Assembly (NCBI RefSeq): GCF_021442325.1
Contig: NZ_CP087879.1
Span: forward strand, 1,240,001 to 1,304,000
From: Agromyces marinus
GTDB lineage: Bacteria; Actinomycetota; Actinomycetes; Actinomycetales; Microbacteriaceae
Direction of reading: 5' to 3'
Length of the DNA stretch: 64,000 nt
In this document: in pieces, positions 13,419 through 48,054 of the stretch
Numbering within the stretch: the first letter of the stretch is position 1
How the letters are laid out: each line of letters begins with the position of its first letter
The notes under the pieces: model-generated
Databases searched by the model: none
The model's input: only the letters and a program-made list of their open reading frames with translations
Told to the model about the DNA's origin: nothing
Made by a program: the position numbers and the translations under genes

Positions 13419-14225
13419 GTGGCCAGCGCGATTCCGACTCCGTACGAAGACCTCCTCCGCGATGTGCTCGAGCACGGCACGCCGAAGGCGGACCGCACCG
13501 GCACCGGAACGCGCAGCGTCTTCGGCCGTCAGCTGCGCTTCGACCTCGCGCAGGGGTTCCCGCTCATCACGACCAAGCGCGTCCACTTCAAGTCCGTCGC
13601 GCTCGAGCTGCTGTGGTTCCTGCGGGGCGATTCGAACGTGCGGTGGCTCCAGGAACGCGGCGTGAGCATCTGGGACGAGTGGGCGGATGCCGCGGGCGAG
13701 CTCGGCCCGGTCTACGGCGTGCAGTGGCGCAGCTGGCCTACCCCGTCGGGCGAGCAGGTCGACCAGATCGCTCAGGTGATCGACGAGATCCGCCGCAACC
13801 CCGACTCGCGTCGGCTCGTCGTGTCGGCCTGGAACCCGGCCGACATCCCCGACATGGCGCTCGCGCCGTGTCATGCGCTGTTCCAGTTCCATGTCGCCGA
13901 CGGCCGCCTCTCGTGCCAGCTCTACCAGCGCAGCGCGGACCTGTTCCTCGGCGTGCCGTTCAACATCGCCTCGTACGCGCTGCTCACGCACCTGATCGCG
14001 CAGCAGACCGGGCTCGAGGTCGGCGACTTCGTGTGGACCGGCGGCGACTGCCACATCTACGACAACCACGTCGAGCAGGTGCGCACGCAGCTCGAGCGCG
14101 ACCCGTACCCGTATCCGACCCTGCGCGTGGCCCCGCGCGCGTCGATCGACGAGTACGAGTTCGCCGACTTCGAGGTCGTCGGATACGAGCACCACCCCGC
14201 GATCCGCGCGGCCGTCGCGGTATGA
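13419..14225 (+). CDS. thyA: Thymidylate synthase (ThyA)
   Basis: 268 residues, typical for ThyA. It methylates dUMP to dTMP with methylene-tetrahydrofolate, releasing dihydrofolate. The catalytic cysteine is residue 151 in [10 protein letters not shown], and [31 protein letters not shown] and [12 protein letters not shown] are the other conserved blocks. dfrA follows with an ATGA overlap, so the enzyme that recycles the dihydrofolate product is co-translated. Confidence 0.97.
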
Positions 14226-14752
14226 GCGGTGACGGCGGCGTGAGCCGAATCGGACTCATCTGGGCGGAGGCGCGCGGGGGAGTCATCGGCGCGGGCGGCG
14301 GCATGCCCTGGCACGTGCCCGAAGACCTGGCGCACTTCAAGCGCACGACCGCCGGATCGCCCGTGATCATGGGCCGGCGAACCTGGGACTCGCTCCCGCC
14401 GAGGTTCCGTCCGTTGCCGGGCCGGGCGAACATCGTCGTGACGCGCCGGGCCGACTGGCACGTCGACGGCGCCGAGCGCGCGGCATCCGTCGGCGAGGCG
14501 ATCGAGCTCGCGAACTCGCACGCGTCGGCCGCAGCGGACGGCCGCATCTGGGTCATCGGCGGCGCCGAGATCTTCGCGCGCACGATCGGCCTGGCCGACC
14601 GCCTCGTCGTCACCGAACTCGACGTCGACGTCGACGGGGACACGTTCGCACCCGACCGCTCGGGCTGGCCGGTCGTGTCGTCCGACCCCGTCGAGGGATG
14701 GCACGACTCGAGCTCCGGCATCCGCTACCGCTTCCTCACCCTCGAGCGCTGA
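14222..14752 (+). CDS. dfrA: Dihydrofolate reductase
   Basis: 176 residues. Reduces dihydrofolate to tetrahydrofolate with NADPH. Conserved parts: [33 protein letters not shown] (with the active-site Glu in PED), [12 protein letters not shown], and [10 protein letters not shown]. Start is the ATG overlapping the thyA stop; a longer open frame running through thyA is rejected. The target of trimethoprim-type inhibitors. A 70-bp palindromic element begins 8 nt after its stop. Confidence 0.96.
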
Positions 14753-14760
14753 CCCGTCGA

Positions 14761-14830
14761 CCGGTCGTCGGACGATCGGGCCGACACGCCGCCCGGTCCC
14801 GGCGCGTCGAACGAATCCTCCGACGACCGG
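14761..14830. repeat. 70-bp palindromic element A (after dfrA)
   Basis: Two 31-nt arms separated by an 8-nt loop (14792-14799); 25 of 31 arm positions pair, the outer 12 perfectly (ccggtcgtcgga). It has the same arm and loop lengths as element B at 15771-15840 and similar sequence, with the shared core GGAKGATTCG. It could be a long-stem terminator of thyA-dfrA or a member of a REP/MITE-like family. No U-run follows. Confidence 0.7.
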
Positions 14831-14921
14831 CCAACCGACCCTGCCTCCACACGCGCGGGCGTGAGGGAGTTGCGCACTGGGGGAAGGTGGGGTGGGCGGA
14901 AACGGCTGCGCGGCGCGCAGC

Positions 14922-15785
14922 ATGTGGGTCATGCCCATCGATCCCGTTCGCGCATGCGCCGCGCTGGGCGGCATCGCCAGCAGGGCCGAACTGCTTCGCG
15001 CGGGTGCGTCGCGCTCGACGATGCACCGGGCGGTGCGGGCGAACGACCTGCTGCGACTGCGCCAGGGGGTGTACGCCGTCGCGGACCTCCCCGACGAAGT
15101 GAGGGCGGCCGCCGCGCACGGCGGCGCGCTCACCTGCGCCCCGCGGCTCCGGTTCGCAGGTCTCTGGCTGCTCGCCGAGCAGCACGGCGTGCACGTCGCG
15201 ATCCCCGGTCGCGGCCGGATGTTCGAGCACGTGGGTTGCGTGTGCGTCACCCACCGGGCCGACGCTCCCGCCAGGGGAGGTATGGTGCCCGTGGTCCATG
15301 CCCTGGCGCATCTGCGGCGTTGCGCGGGCGCGGAGGATTTCGTCGTGGCGCTCGAGTCCGCGTTGCGGCTCGGCGTGCTCGAAGAGCCCGGGCGGGCGGC
15401 GTTGCGCGCGTTGGTCCCGAAGCATGCATGGGCACTCGTCGACGATGCGAGAACGGATGCCGACAGCGGACTCGAGTCGCTGCTGCGCCACCGGCTGAAC
15501 CGTCTGGGAATCTCGCTGCAGTCGCAGGTGAGCATCCCCGGGGTCGGTCGGGTCGACTTCGTCCTGGGAGACCGGCTCATCCTCGAGGTCGACGGGCGCG
15601 ACAACCACGACGGACCGTCGAAACGGCACCGCGACCTGGTGCGGGATTCGGTCGCAGCGGCGCACGGCTTCGACACCCTGCGCTTCGACTACGCCATGGT
15701 CGTCCACGACTGGCCGGTCGTCGAGGCCGCGATCCTCGGCAAGGTCGAGCGGAACCTTCACCTTCGTCGGCCGTACGTCGGATGA
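14922..15785 (+). CDS. AbiEi-like / DUF559 nuclease-domain protein
   Basis: About 287 residues. N-terminal winged-helix-like part (ALGGIASRAELLRAGASRSTMHRAV, then LLRLRQGVYAV) resembles the antitoxin-type domain named AbiEi; the C-terminal part is a DUF559/Vsr-like restriction-nuclease fold with the metal-site pattern VDFVLGDRLILEVDG (Asp...Glu-x-Asp). Many actinobacteria carry such solitary proteins; their role is unknown and no AbiEii toxin lies next to it. It separates dfrA from dapA and is bracketed by palindromes A and B, B overlapping its last codons, so it may be an acquired cassette. Start could be ATG 14922 or 14931; neither has a strong ribosome site. Confidence 0.75.
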   Translation: MWVMPIDPVRACAALGGIASRAELLRAGASRSTMHRAVRANDLLRLRQGVYAVADLPDEVRAAAAHGGALTCAPRLRFAGLWLLAEQHGVHVAIPGRGRMFEHVGCVCVTHRADAPARGGMVPVVHALAHLRRCAGAEDFVVALESALRLGVLEEPGRAALRALVPKHAWALVDDARTDADSGLESLLRHRLNRLGISLQSQVSIPGVGRVDFVLGDRLILEVDGRDNHDGPSKRHRDLVRDSVAAAHGFDTLRFDYAMVVHDWPVVEAAILGKVERNLHLRRPYVG

Positions 15786-15840
15786 TTCGGATGCCGCGCC
15801 GACCTCCCCCGGCGCGCCGCACGAATCATCCGACGATCGG
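15771..15840. repeat. 70-bp palindromic element B (3' end of DUF559 gene)
   Basis: 31-nt arms with an 8-nt loop (15802-15809), 25 of 31 positions paired including cgtcggatgattcg and cgcgccg blocks. It begins 12 nt inside the coding region, so the last codons and stop of the DUF559 gene are part of its left arm. Same architecture as element A about 1 kb upstream. Probably a 3'-end hairpin; a mobile palindrome is the alternative. Confidence 0.7.
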
Positions 15841-15906
15841 CACGTGAGACGGCGGGAGGACGGGGGAGTCGGGCGGCTGGAGGCGAGGCGGGAGGGCGAG
15901 CCGCGA

Positions 15907-15912
15907 TAGCCT
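15907..15912 (+). promoter_or_regulatory. Putative -10 for leaderless dapA
   Basis: TAGCCT followed by 7 nt and the GTG at 15920; no ribosome site upstream. Confidence 0.5.
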
Positions 15913-15919
15913 GTAGGGC

Positions 15920-16894
15920 GTGAGTGCAGTCAATCCCTTCGGTCAGGTGCTCGTCGCGCTCGTCACGCCCATGACGGCGGACGGCGAGGTCGCGTGGGAC
16001 GACGTCGAGAAGCACATCGACGACGTCATCAGCGCCGGCGCCGACGGGATCGTGGTCACGGGCACGACCGGTGAGACCTCGACGCTCACCGATGCCGAGA
16101 AGCTGCGCCTCGTCGAGGTCGGCAAGGACGTCGCCGCGGGCCGCGCGAAGATCATCACGGGCGGCGGGTCGAACGAGACCGCGCACGCCATCGAGCTCTA
16201 CAAGGCCAGCGAGAAGGCCGGCGCCGACGGCATCATGATCGTCACGCCCTACTACAACAAGCCCACCCAGGCCGGAATCCTCACGCACTTCCGCCTCGTC
16301 GCGGATGCGACCGACCTGCCCGTGATCCTCTACGACATCCCCGGCCGGACCGGCGTGCCCATCGCGTACGAGACCATCCTGCGCCTGGCCAAGCACCCGA
16401 ACATCCTGGCTGTGAAAGACGCCAAGGGCGACTTCAGCCAGGTGAGCCGCGTGCTCAACCAGACCGACCTCATGTACTTCTCGGGCGACGACGCCAACGT
16501 GCTGCCGCACCTCTCGATCGGCGCGACCGGCCTCATCGGCGTGACCGCGAACATCGCGCCCGCGCCGTACCGCGCCATCGTGGACGCCGTCAATCGGGGC
16601 GACCTCGCGGCCGCGACCGCCGAGCACCGTCGGCTCGAACCGCTCGTGCGAGCCGCGATGACGCACGTGCCAGGCACCGTCGCGTCGAAGTACATCCTCC
16701 ACGGACTCGGCCGGATCGGCAGCCCGCGCGTGCGCCTTCCGCTCGTCGGCCCCGAGGAATGGGAGGCTGCCCTCATCGAGGACGAGCTCGACCTCGTCCA
16801 GGGCGTGCCCGGCGTCGACTTCCACAACTTCCGGCCCGACCGCAACGCCGCCGCCGGCGGCGCACTGCCGAAGGTGGCCGGCACCACGCGCTGA
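15920..16894 (+). CDS. dapA: 4-hydroxy-tetrahydrodipicolinate synthase
   Basis: 324 residues, slightly longer than usual (about 295-300). Condenses pyruvate with aspartate semialdehyde. Conserved blocks: GTTGETSTLT (the Thr-Thr of the catalytic triad), PYYNKPTQAG with the triad Tyr region, YDIPGRTG, and the Schiff-base lysine in LAVKDAKGD. The extra length is a C-terminal tail ending PKVAGTTR. GTG start is placed 7 nt after a -10 hexamer. rnj follows after 76 nt, as in other actinobacteria. Confidence 0.96.
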   Translation: MSAVNPFGQVLVALVTPMTADGEVAWDDVEKHIDDVISAGADGIVVTGTTGETSTLTDAEKLRLVEVGKDVAAGRAKIITGGGSNETAHAIELYKASEKAGADGIMIVTPYYNKPTQAGILTHFRLVADATDLPVILYDIPGRTGVPIAYETILRLAKHPNILAVKDAKGDFSQVSRVLNQTDLMYFSGDDANVLPHLSIGATGLIGVTANIAPAPYRAIVDAVNRGDLAAATAEHRRLEPLVRAAMTHVPGTVASKYILHGLGRIGSPRVRLPLVGPEEWEAALIEDELDLVQGVPGVDFHNFRPDRNAAAGGALPKVAGTTR

Positions 16895-47971: not shown

Positions 47972-48054
47972 CCGCGATTCAGGAGGATTCGCGCTCGCGT
48001 CGGCGTGTCGCGCACCGACACGCCGGCGAGCGGGGAATTCCTCCTGAATCGCGG
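47972..48054. repeat. 83-bp palindromic element C (after nei)
   Basis: 39-nt arms (47972-48010 and 48016-48054) with a 5-nt loop; 32 of 39 positions pair, the outer 16 perfectly (ccgcgattcaggagga). Shares the core GGAGGATTCG with elements A and B at 14761 and 15771. Lies between convergent nei and the DUF1844 gene, so it can serve both as terminator. Confidence 0.7.

Follow-up and report, generated by a model that had tools for sequence, protein, structure and literature searches.

We have found that an AbiEi-DUF559 gene between dfrA and dapA of Agromyces marinus is bracketed by two long palindromes that match each other. With other palindromes, the same bracketing is seen around paralogues that lie at unrelated loci, in Microbacterium and in further families of actinobacteria. 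The evidence consists of the anatomy of the locus, the matched palindrome pairs, their dispersed copies, the boundaries of cassette exchange, and the predicted folds and conserved acidic and histidine residues of the protein. These observations suggest a kind of genetic element, mobile or selfish, that has not been described.

The window referred to below is the whole stretch of DNA that was analysed, 64,000 nucleotides in length. The following features of it are used here:

14222..14752, + strand: dfrA (dihydrofolate reductase), upstream neighbour, outside the unit; Pfam DHFR_1, E 4.9e-46
14756..14835, unstranded: palindrome A, upstream; two 36-nt arms, 8-bp spacer at 14792-14799; outer stem CCGGTCGTCGGACGATC, inner core CGACACGCCG / CGGCGCGTCG; R1 covariance model, 72.9 bits
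14931..15785, + strand: AbiEi-DUF559 gene; ATG at 14931, stop at 15785, 284 aa; Pfam, conservation, AlphaFold2 model and PDB fold matches
15770..15841, unstranded: palindrome B, downstream; two 32-nt arms, 8-bp spacer at 15802-15809; R1 covariance model, 72.6 bits
15920..16894, + strand: dapA, downstream neighbour; Pfam DHDPS
47972..48054 (span 47977-48049), unstranded: solo palindrome of another family (ATTCAGGA...TCCTGAAT); R1 E 3.4e-6 and pattern match

An earlier note on this DNA had placed two related palindromes at 14761-14830 and 15771-15840, on either side of a gene lying between dfrA and dapA. Both palindromes are real, and the two intervals are the cores of larger elements. The arms of A (14756-14791 and 14800-14835, 36 nt) are 78% complementary and those of B (15770-15801 and 15810-15841, 32 nt) 81% complementary, with 8 nt between the arms in each case. 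The similarity of A to B amounts to 77% identity over an alignment of 77 nt in the same register, and the folding of each beats 200 of 200 dinucleotide shuffles (z -3.7 for A, -5.9 for B). B starts at 15770 and therefore provides the last codons and the stop of the gene, an overlap that had also been claimed. The placement of the gene was upheld by Pfam, which identifies a DHFR upstream and a DHDPS (dapA) downstream. The solo palindrome at 47977-48049 has the stem of the pair around a paralogue, G000:C1:779505-780482.

The window protein is predicted to join an AbiEi-type DNA-binding part to a nuclease of the Vsr/EDxHD type. An AbiEi-like helix-turn-helix and a nuclease-fold pattern had been read from its sequence, and Pfam agrees on both, with AbiEi_4 at 32.7 bits (cut-off 25) and DUF559 at 27.8 bits (cut-off 20.6); an NCBIfam search gave no family for the protein. 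The AbiEi-type DNA-binding region occupies residues 1-175 and the Vsr/EDxHD-like DUF559 nuclease domain residues 177-280. An AlphaFold2 model built from 70 sequences has a mean pLDDT of 95.5 and a pTM of 0.90. Residues 1-175 of the model match the winged-HTH fold of the AbiEi antitoxin 6y8q_A (173 aligned, rmsd 4.6 A) at Z 7.5, a value that is modest alone and is backed by Pfam AbiEi_4 and by rank 1 in Foldseek (E 2.1e-4). Residues 179-278 match the catalytic domain of the homing endonuclease I-Bth0305I (3r3p_A; Z 13.0, rmsd 2.6, 96 aligned), nearly the same C-terminal stretch matches 3hrl (Z 11.9), and residues 177-277 match Vsr (1cw0_A; Z 10.7). The candidate catalytic residues are E182, D209, D221, H226 and D235, invariant in the 70 sequences, and E219, conserved in at least 90% of them. 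The complete or near invariance of D209, E219, D221, H226 and D235 makes the nuclease site look constrained. In the middle region, residues 100-108 form an H-x2-C-x-C-x2-H motif, a possible metal site, which is invariant in 16 orthologues; C105 and H108 are what is still conserved of it in a wider sequence set.

No AbiEii (DUF1814) toxin gene is adjacent, the neighbours being dfrA and dapA, and the locus is therefore not an AbiE toxin-antitoxin operon. A defence or addiction role is possible, with no partner toxin or antitoxin gene adjacent. Relatives of the protein numbered one partial match in phages and six in plasmids, three of which have a coverage of at least 80%, at about 32% identity, and none was found among IMG/VR viral contigs. 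The best Foldseek matches to viral models were mostly nucleases and DUF559 proteins.

A homologue of the gene is present in 55 of 60 Agromyces genomes, and it lies directly upstream of dapA at all 30 loci of clear Agromyces orthologues. Elements at these 30 loci were called by a strict test that requires at least 13 of 23 outer pairs and at least 15 of 18 core letters. By this test 43 of 60 flanks hold an element, on both sides at 19 loci, on one side at 5 and on neither at 6; G056, G030, G015 and G038, which form one close group, are among the weakly bracketed orthologues. As controls, shuffled flanks passed in 7 of 1200 cases and 400-bp windows from the nadB locus in 12 of 283, some of the latter being real nadB elements. 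Spacers measure 7-8 bp (18 elements) or 18-19 bp (25 elements) with none between, a step of one helical turn, and at 19 of 19 loci the spacer length is the same on both sides.

The match between the two palindromes of a locus was scored as the agreement of two upstream and two downstream arms over 12 nt at equal span, with a maximum of 48. This four-arm score and its controls superseded a scan of the flanks for the inner core with weak outer pairing, which was dropped as too noisy (153 matches vs 116 on reversed sequence). A score of at least 44 was reached at 19 of 32 Agromyces orthologue loci, at 29 of 50 paralogue loci elsewhere in the genomes, and in 2 of 188 control windows taken from Agromyces loci that lack the gene; palindromes thus do not stand at most gene ends irrespective of family. 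At a score of at least 45, 50 of 80 Agromyces and Microbacterium loci passed vs 11 of 690 mixed flanks, in which the upstream side of one locus was paired with the downstream side of another. A class-wide sample of 38 loci, with Agromyces windows as its controls, gave scores of at least 44 at 17 of 32 loci from other families and, within the same family, at 2 of 6 from another genus. Of 118 Actinomycetes genomes sampled, 53 had a match to the family profile.

The outer stem is common to both palindromes of a gene and differs from gene to gene; stems found include GCGGATATACGATC, GAAGGAGAT, GAGTTGCACGA, GTCGTCGGACGATC, GCATGAGAATCC, ATTCAGGA and GCACAACTTCGG. In the seven genomes whose dfrA-dapA gene carries the GCGGATATACGATC stem, compared through the gene (21 pairs each), the outer stems are 98% identical upstream and 96% downstream, the spacers are 34% and 28% identical, and the 30-nt flanks are 34% identical. 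The stem also follows the protein. The mean best 12-nt stem match is 8.9 where the helix-turn-helix regions are less than 30% identical and at least 11.2 above 60% identity (Mantel p 0.002, 99 loci). The nuclease domain tracks the stem about as well as the helix-turn-helix, with partial correlations of 0.09 each.

Solo copies of the palindromes are dispersed through the genomes, and their dispersal goes with the gene. Strand matches to the 14-mer GCGGATATACGATC number 140 in the seven genomes with this stem at their dfrA-dapA gene (G047 56, G045 22, G007 19, G021 17, G009 11, G014 11, G043 4). Elsewhere the 14-mer has 24 matches in 6 further genomes and none in 47, and its reversed control has none in 60. 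Some genomes retain palindromic elements without the matching gene. The A. marinus genome itself holds three AbiEi-DUF559 genes, three palindrome families and solo copies of each. Copies resembling palindrome A were found elsewhere in this genome, and the solo copies of the window gene lie in what we take, from the translations, to be nadB and the interval between a dsbA-like gene and ybaK. The gene at G000:C1:779505-780482, which has ATTCAGGA palindromes, is accompanied by exact solo copies at 731676, 1287977 (inside the window), 2111497 and 2397140 and by changed ones at 730479, 2396087 and 309536; the reversed control of this pattern gave 0 in 60 genomes. The gene at 394364-395272 has GCATGAG palindromes, two flanking it and nine exact copies standing alone, vs two control matches. 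Across genomes the reversed control of the GCATGAG pattern reaches up to 6 in one genome, so that low counts of this pattern mean little.

One palindrome of A. marinus is translated in frame within the interdomain linker of NadB. Across Agromyces species (loci L314-L343) this linker carries in-frame peptides from different palindrome families, with the pattern RHA...GVS, and it is shorter in some species, e.g. G001, G032 and G051. Many solo copies are common to species at orthologous places, and their spread may therefore be old or slow rather than a matter of rapid movement. Conservation of solo elements at orthologous sites is 0.97 in the outer stem, 0.42 in the spacer and 0.58 in the near flank, figures that are biased because the loci were fetched by exact motif; the claim that stems are conserved relies on the gene-started comparison of seven genomes. 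Different species were also seen to carry different palindrome families at the same orthologous intergenic place (L101/L104/L349/L372 vs L036/L051; L117/L377 vs L166; L365/L378 vs L047; L380 vs L059), which may reflect turnover in place, repeated insertion or site preference. G010 is left out of one such comparison, since its sequence comes from a different intergenic interval.

Two arrangements of copies stand apart. At G000:C1:730479-730561 and 731671-731753, near-identical ATTCAGGA-family palindromes in the same orientation flank an alpha/beta-hydrolase-like frame without a DUF559 gene, a pair that resembles a compound element. At G018:C1:2662581-2662847, three tandem GCATGAG palindromes about 105 bp apart adjoin their cognate gene and are reminiscent of tandem REPIN clusters.

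The gene and its palindromes are exchanged together. Sister species whose DapA proteins are 98-99.7% identical can carry AbiEi-DUF559 proteins that are 51-58% identical and have different stems. The pairs, with the identity of DapA followed by that of the gene's protein, are G034/G014 (99.4%, 55.6%), G034/G045 (99.1%, 58.1%), G027/G024 (99.4%, 58.4%), G054/G043 (99.1%, 51.3%), G052/G021 (98.5%, 52.6%) and G020/G013 (98.1%, 58.5%). The allele was kept in G045/G014 (99.7%, 87.6%) and G028/G023 (98.1%, 99.0%). In G034/G045, upstream identity of 90% ends 210 bp before the gene and identity of 96% is back 75 bp after it, which puts the breakpoints at most about 40 bp from the outer ends of the two palindromes. 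Breakpoints are alike in G034/G014, nearly so in G054/G043 and less sharp in G052/G021 and G020/G013, and in G027/G024 identity is regained inside the gene.

Genomes without the gene give the same outline. Compared with G033, what the gene-less G042 lacks is no more than the segment that runs from the first palindrome to the last, and 26 bp stay unaligned; G032 shows a similar gap with 62 bp unaligned. This sharp comparison is limited to G042 and G032, the other gene-less genomes being too diverged, and no target-site duplication was callable in the alignments of G033 with these two, where the junctions are too diverged. Between sister species, and between gene-bearing and gene-less genomes, it is the palindrome-gene-palindrome block that is exchanged or absent. 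This favours the second of two options in the earlier note, a cassette carried by palindromic elements, and a gene that is swapped or absent among close relatives has not followed ordinary vertical descent. The same note expected an empty site with a single palindrome. The short dfrA-dapA intervals (40-192 bp) of 18 gene-less genomes held no such palindrome, with one weak possible relic in G006, and classical homing into an existing site was therefore not seen. Eight Agromyces genomes retain nothing but gene remnants before dapA (L124, L129, L130, L132, L135, L136, L138, L143), so the cassette decays as well as exchanges.

We consider it probable that a dimer of the protein recognises the cognate palindromes and that the nuclease domain makes them spread and brings about the exchange of the cassette, much as has been suggested for RAYTs and REPINs but here with an unrelated enzyme; binding, cutting and mobilisation are proposed as follows. 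The unit would be palindrome, gene and palindrome. A dimer of the protein would hold, through its AbiEi-type region, both inverted half-sites of the cognate palindrome, each about 30 bp long, and the gene-specific outer stem would determine the pairing of paralogues with palindromes. A common frame, made of the inner core and a spacer of 8 or 18 bp, would keep the half-sites on the same face of the helix. The C-terminal nuclease would then nick or cut at or beside the palindrome, and repair of the break from another copy would spread palindromes to new sites and also exchange the whole cassette between chromosomes. AbiEi and Rv2827c are described as binding 23-bp inverted repeats spaced 3 or 13 bp, a 10-bp step (PMC7319586), and I-Bth0305I as dimerising on a target of nearly 60 bp (PMC3943268). 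A dimer on one palindrome is the simplest model because the 8- and 18-bp spacers repeat the ten-base step reported for AbiEi and Rv2827c, and because the I-Bth0305I dimer is reported to sit on nearly 60 bp.

One alternative, which we regard as unlikely, is that the protein is an AbiEi-like autorepressor whose operator is the upstream palindrome, the dispersed palindromes being further operators or chromosome-organising sites and the nuclease domain now structural. An upstream palindrome is indeed usual, and AbiEi and Rv2827c are reported to repress their own promoters through inverted repeats (PMC7319586). Against this, there is a matching copy on the downstream side too, the swapping of cassettes involves the whole block, and the nuclease site looks constrained at D209, E219, D221, H226 and D235. 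The setting of the solo copies also speaks against operators: by a rough gene caller, 49 solo group-I elements comprise 16 with convergent neighbours, 19 with tandem neighbours, only 2 with divergent neighbours and 12 apparently inside reading frames.

A defence function is likewise doubtful. Here the protein would be a nuclease of fast-changing specificity aimed at foreign DNA or rival cassettes, and the palindromes would be self-marks, decoys or recombination boundaries for allele exchange. The 51-58% identical alleles between nearly identical neighbours in sister species fit this idea, and PADLOC AbiEi models do match the helix-turn-helix part, but they match weakly (best E 7.7e-6) and are almost all confined to that segment. 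There is no adjacent partner gene, and the idea leaves unexplained why solo copies follow the gene.

It is improbable that the palindromes are MITE-like repeats moved by another enzyme, with the gene caught between two copies. The elements are small, palindromic and dispersed, and both intergenic DNA and the NadB linker tolerate them; however, this leaves unexplained why there is one palindrome family per gene, with three families in one genome, and why the same bracketing recurs across actinobacterial families. It is very improbable that the stems act at the RNA level, as terminators or as structured RNAs that the protein processes, since, stable hairpins and common convergent sites notwithstanding, there is no T-run, an Rfam search of the window gave no match, spacer length is fixed in 10-bp steps, and non-Watson-Crick pairs in the stems are near balance (G-T 75 vs A-C 64), with little excess and no clear sign of selection on RNA. 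The other option in the earlier note, long-stem terminators of one family, finds no support: that same balance speaks against it, as do the missing T-run of an intrinsic terminator after a GC-rich stem (0 found in 14200-16200), stems that match within a gene and not between genes, and copies inside reading frames, e.g. nadB.

We return to the proposed dimeric nuclease acting on its own palindromes. Tentatively, and as a serious possibility, the AbiEi-DUF559 genes of Actinobacteria may form a so far undescribed class of selfish genes. Each would encode an endonuclease that acts as a dimer on a long palindromic target of its own, would be bracketed by two copies of that target, would seed solo copies (also in frame inside genes) and would be exchanged between species as a cassette, and a genome could house several orthogonal families. 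If so, the turnover of palindromes at orthologous sites would be competition between families. No known function was found for AbiEi-DUF559 fusions, and the palindrome that belongs to each gene offers a testable substrate. The tie between gene and palindrome would account for one type of dispersed repeat in high-GC actinobacteria, and the naturally varied pairs of protein and long palindromic target would be a ready data set for learning DNA recognition.

Several known systems share features with this one. Rickettsia palindromic elements are palindromic repeats that lie in frame within coding sequence, like the element in the NadB linker. We know of no cognate gene for them, whereas the AbiEi-DUF559 system has one per family. 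AbiE type IV toxin-antitoxin systems (AbiEi/Rv2827c) share the AbiEi fold with residues 1-175, and AbiEi proteins are reported to bind spaced inverted repeats (PMC7319586); the Agromyces locus differs in having no adjacent AbiEii nucleotidyltransferase, a fused nuclease, and a repeat that is also downstream and dispersed. EDxHD homing endonucleases such as I-Bth0305I share the fold of the catalytic domain (Z 13.0), and the dimer on a target of nearly 60 bp reported for I-Bth0305I (PMC3943268) is what we propose here for the fusion protein. In contrast to those enzymes, the DNA-binding part of the Agromyces protein is AbiEi-like, there is no intron or interrupted target, and the gene stands between two whole palindromes while gene-less sites have none.

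REPIN-RAYT systems come with a REP family for each RAYT, beside the gene and dispersed in the genome, and with several gene-repeat families per genome (PMC3116915). On that description, the likeness lies in a single-copy gene adjoined by family-specific palindromic repeats, with further copies of the family dispersed in the same genome. The enzymes differ, RAYT being a Y1 (HUH) tyrosine transposase and the Agromyces protein a combination of AbiEi_4 and DUF559 (Vsr/EDxHD-type), and so do the repeats, each Agromyces-type element being a single long palindrome whose spacer measures 8 or 18 bp. We judge the AbiEi-DUF559 system to be a new kind because each known kind considered fails at least one tested defining feature and because the open-licence literature yielded no account linking DUF559 or AbiEi-DUF559 to palindromic repeats. 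On the best reading, its mode of working is that of a REPIN-RAYT pair or of a homing element, although the enzyme is unrelated, and a REPIN-RAYT-like partnership may have arisen with this enzyme.
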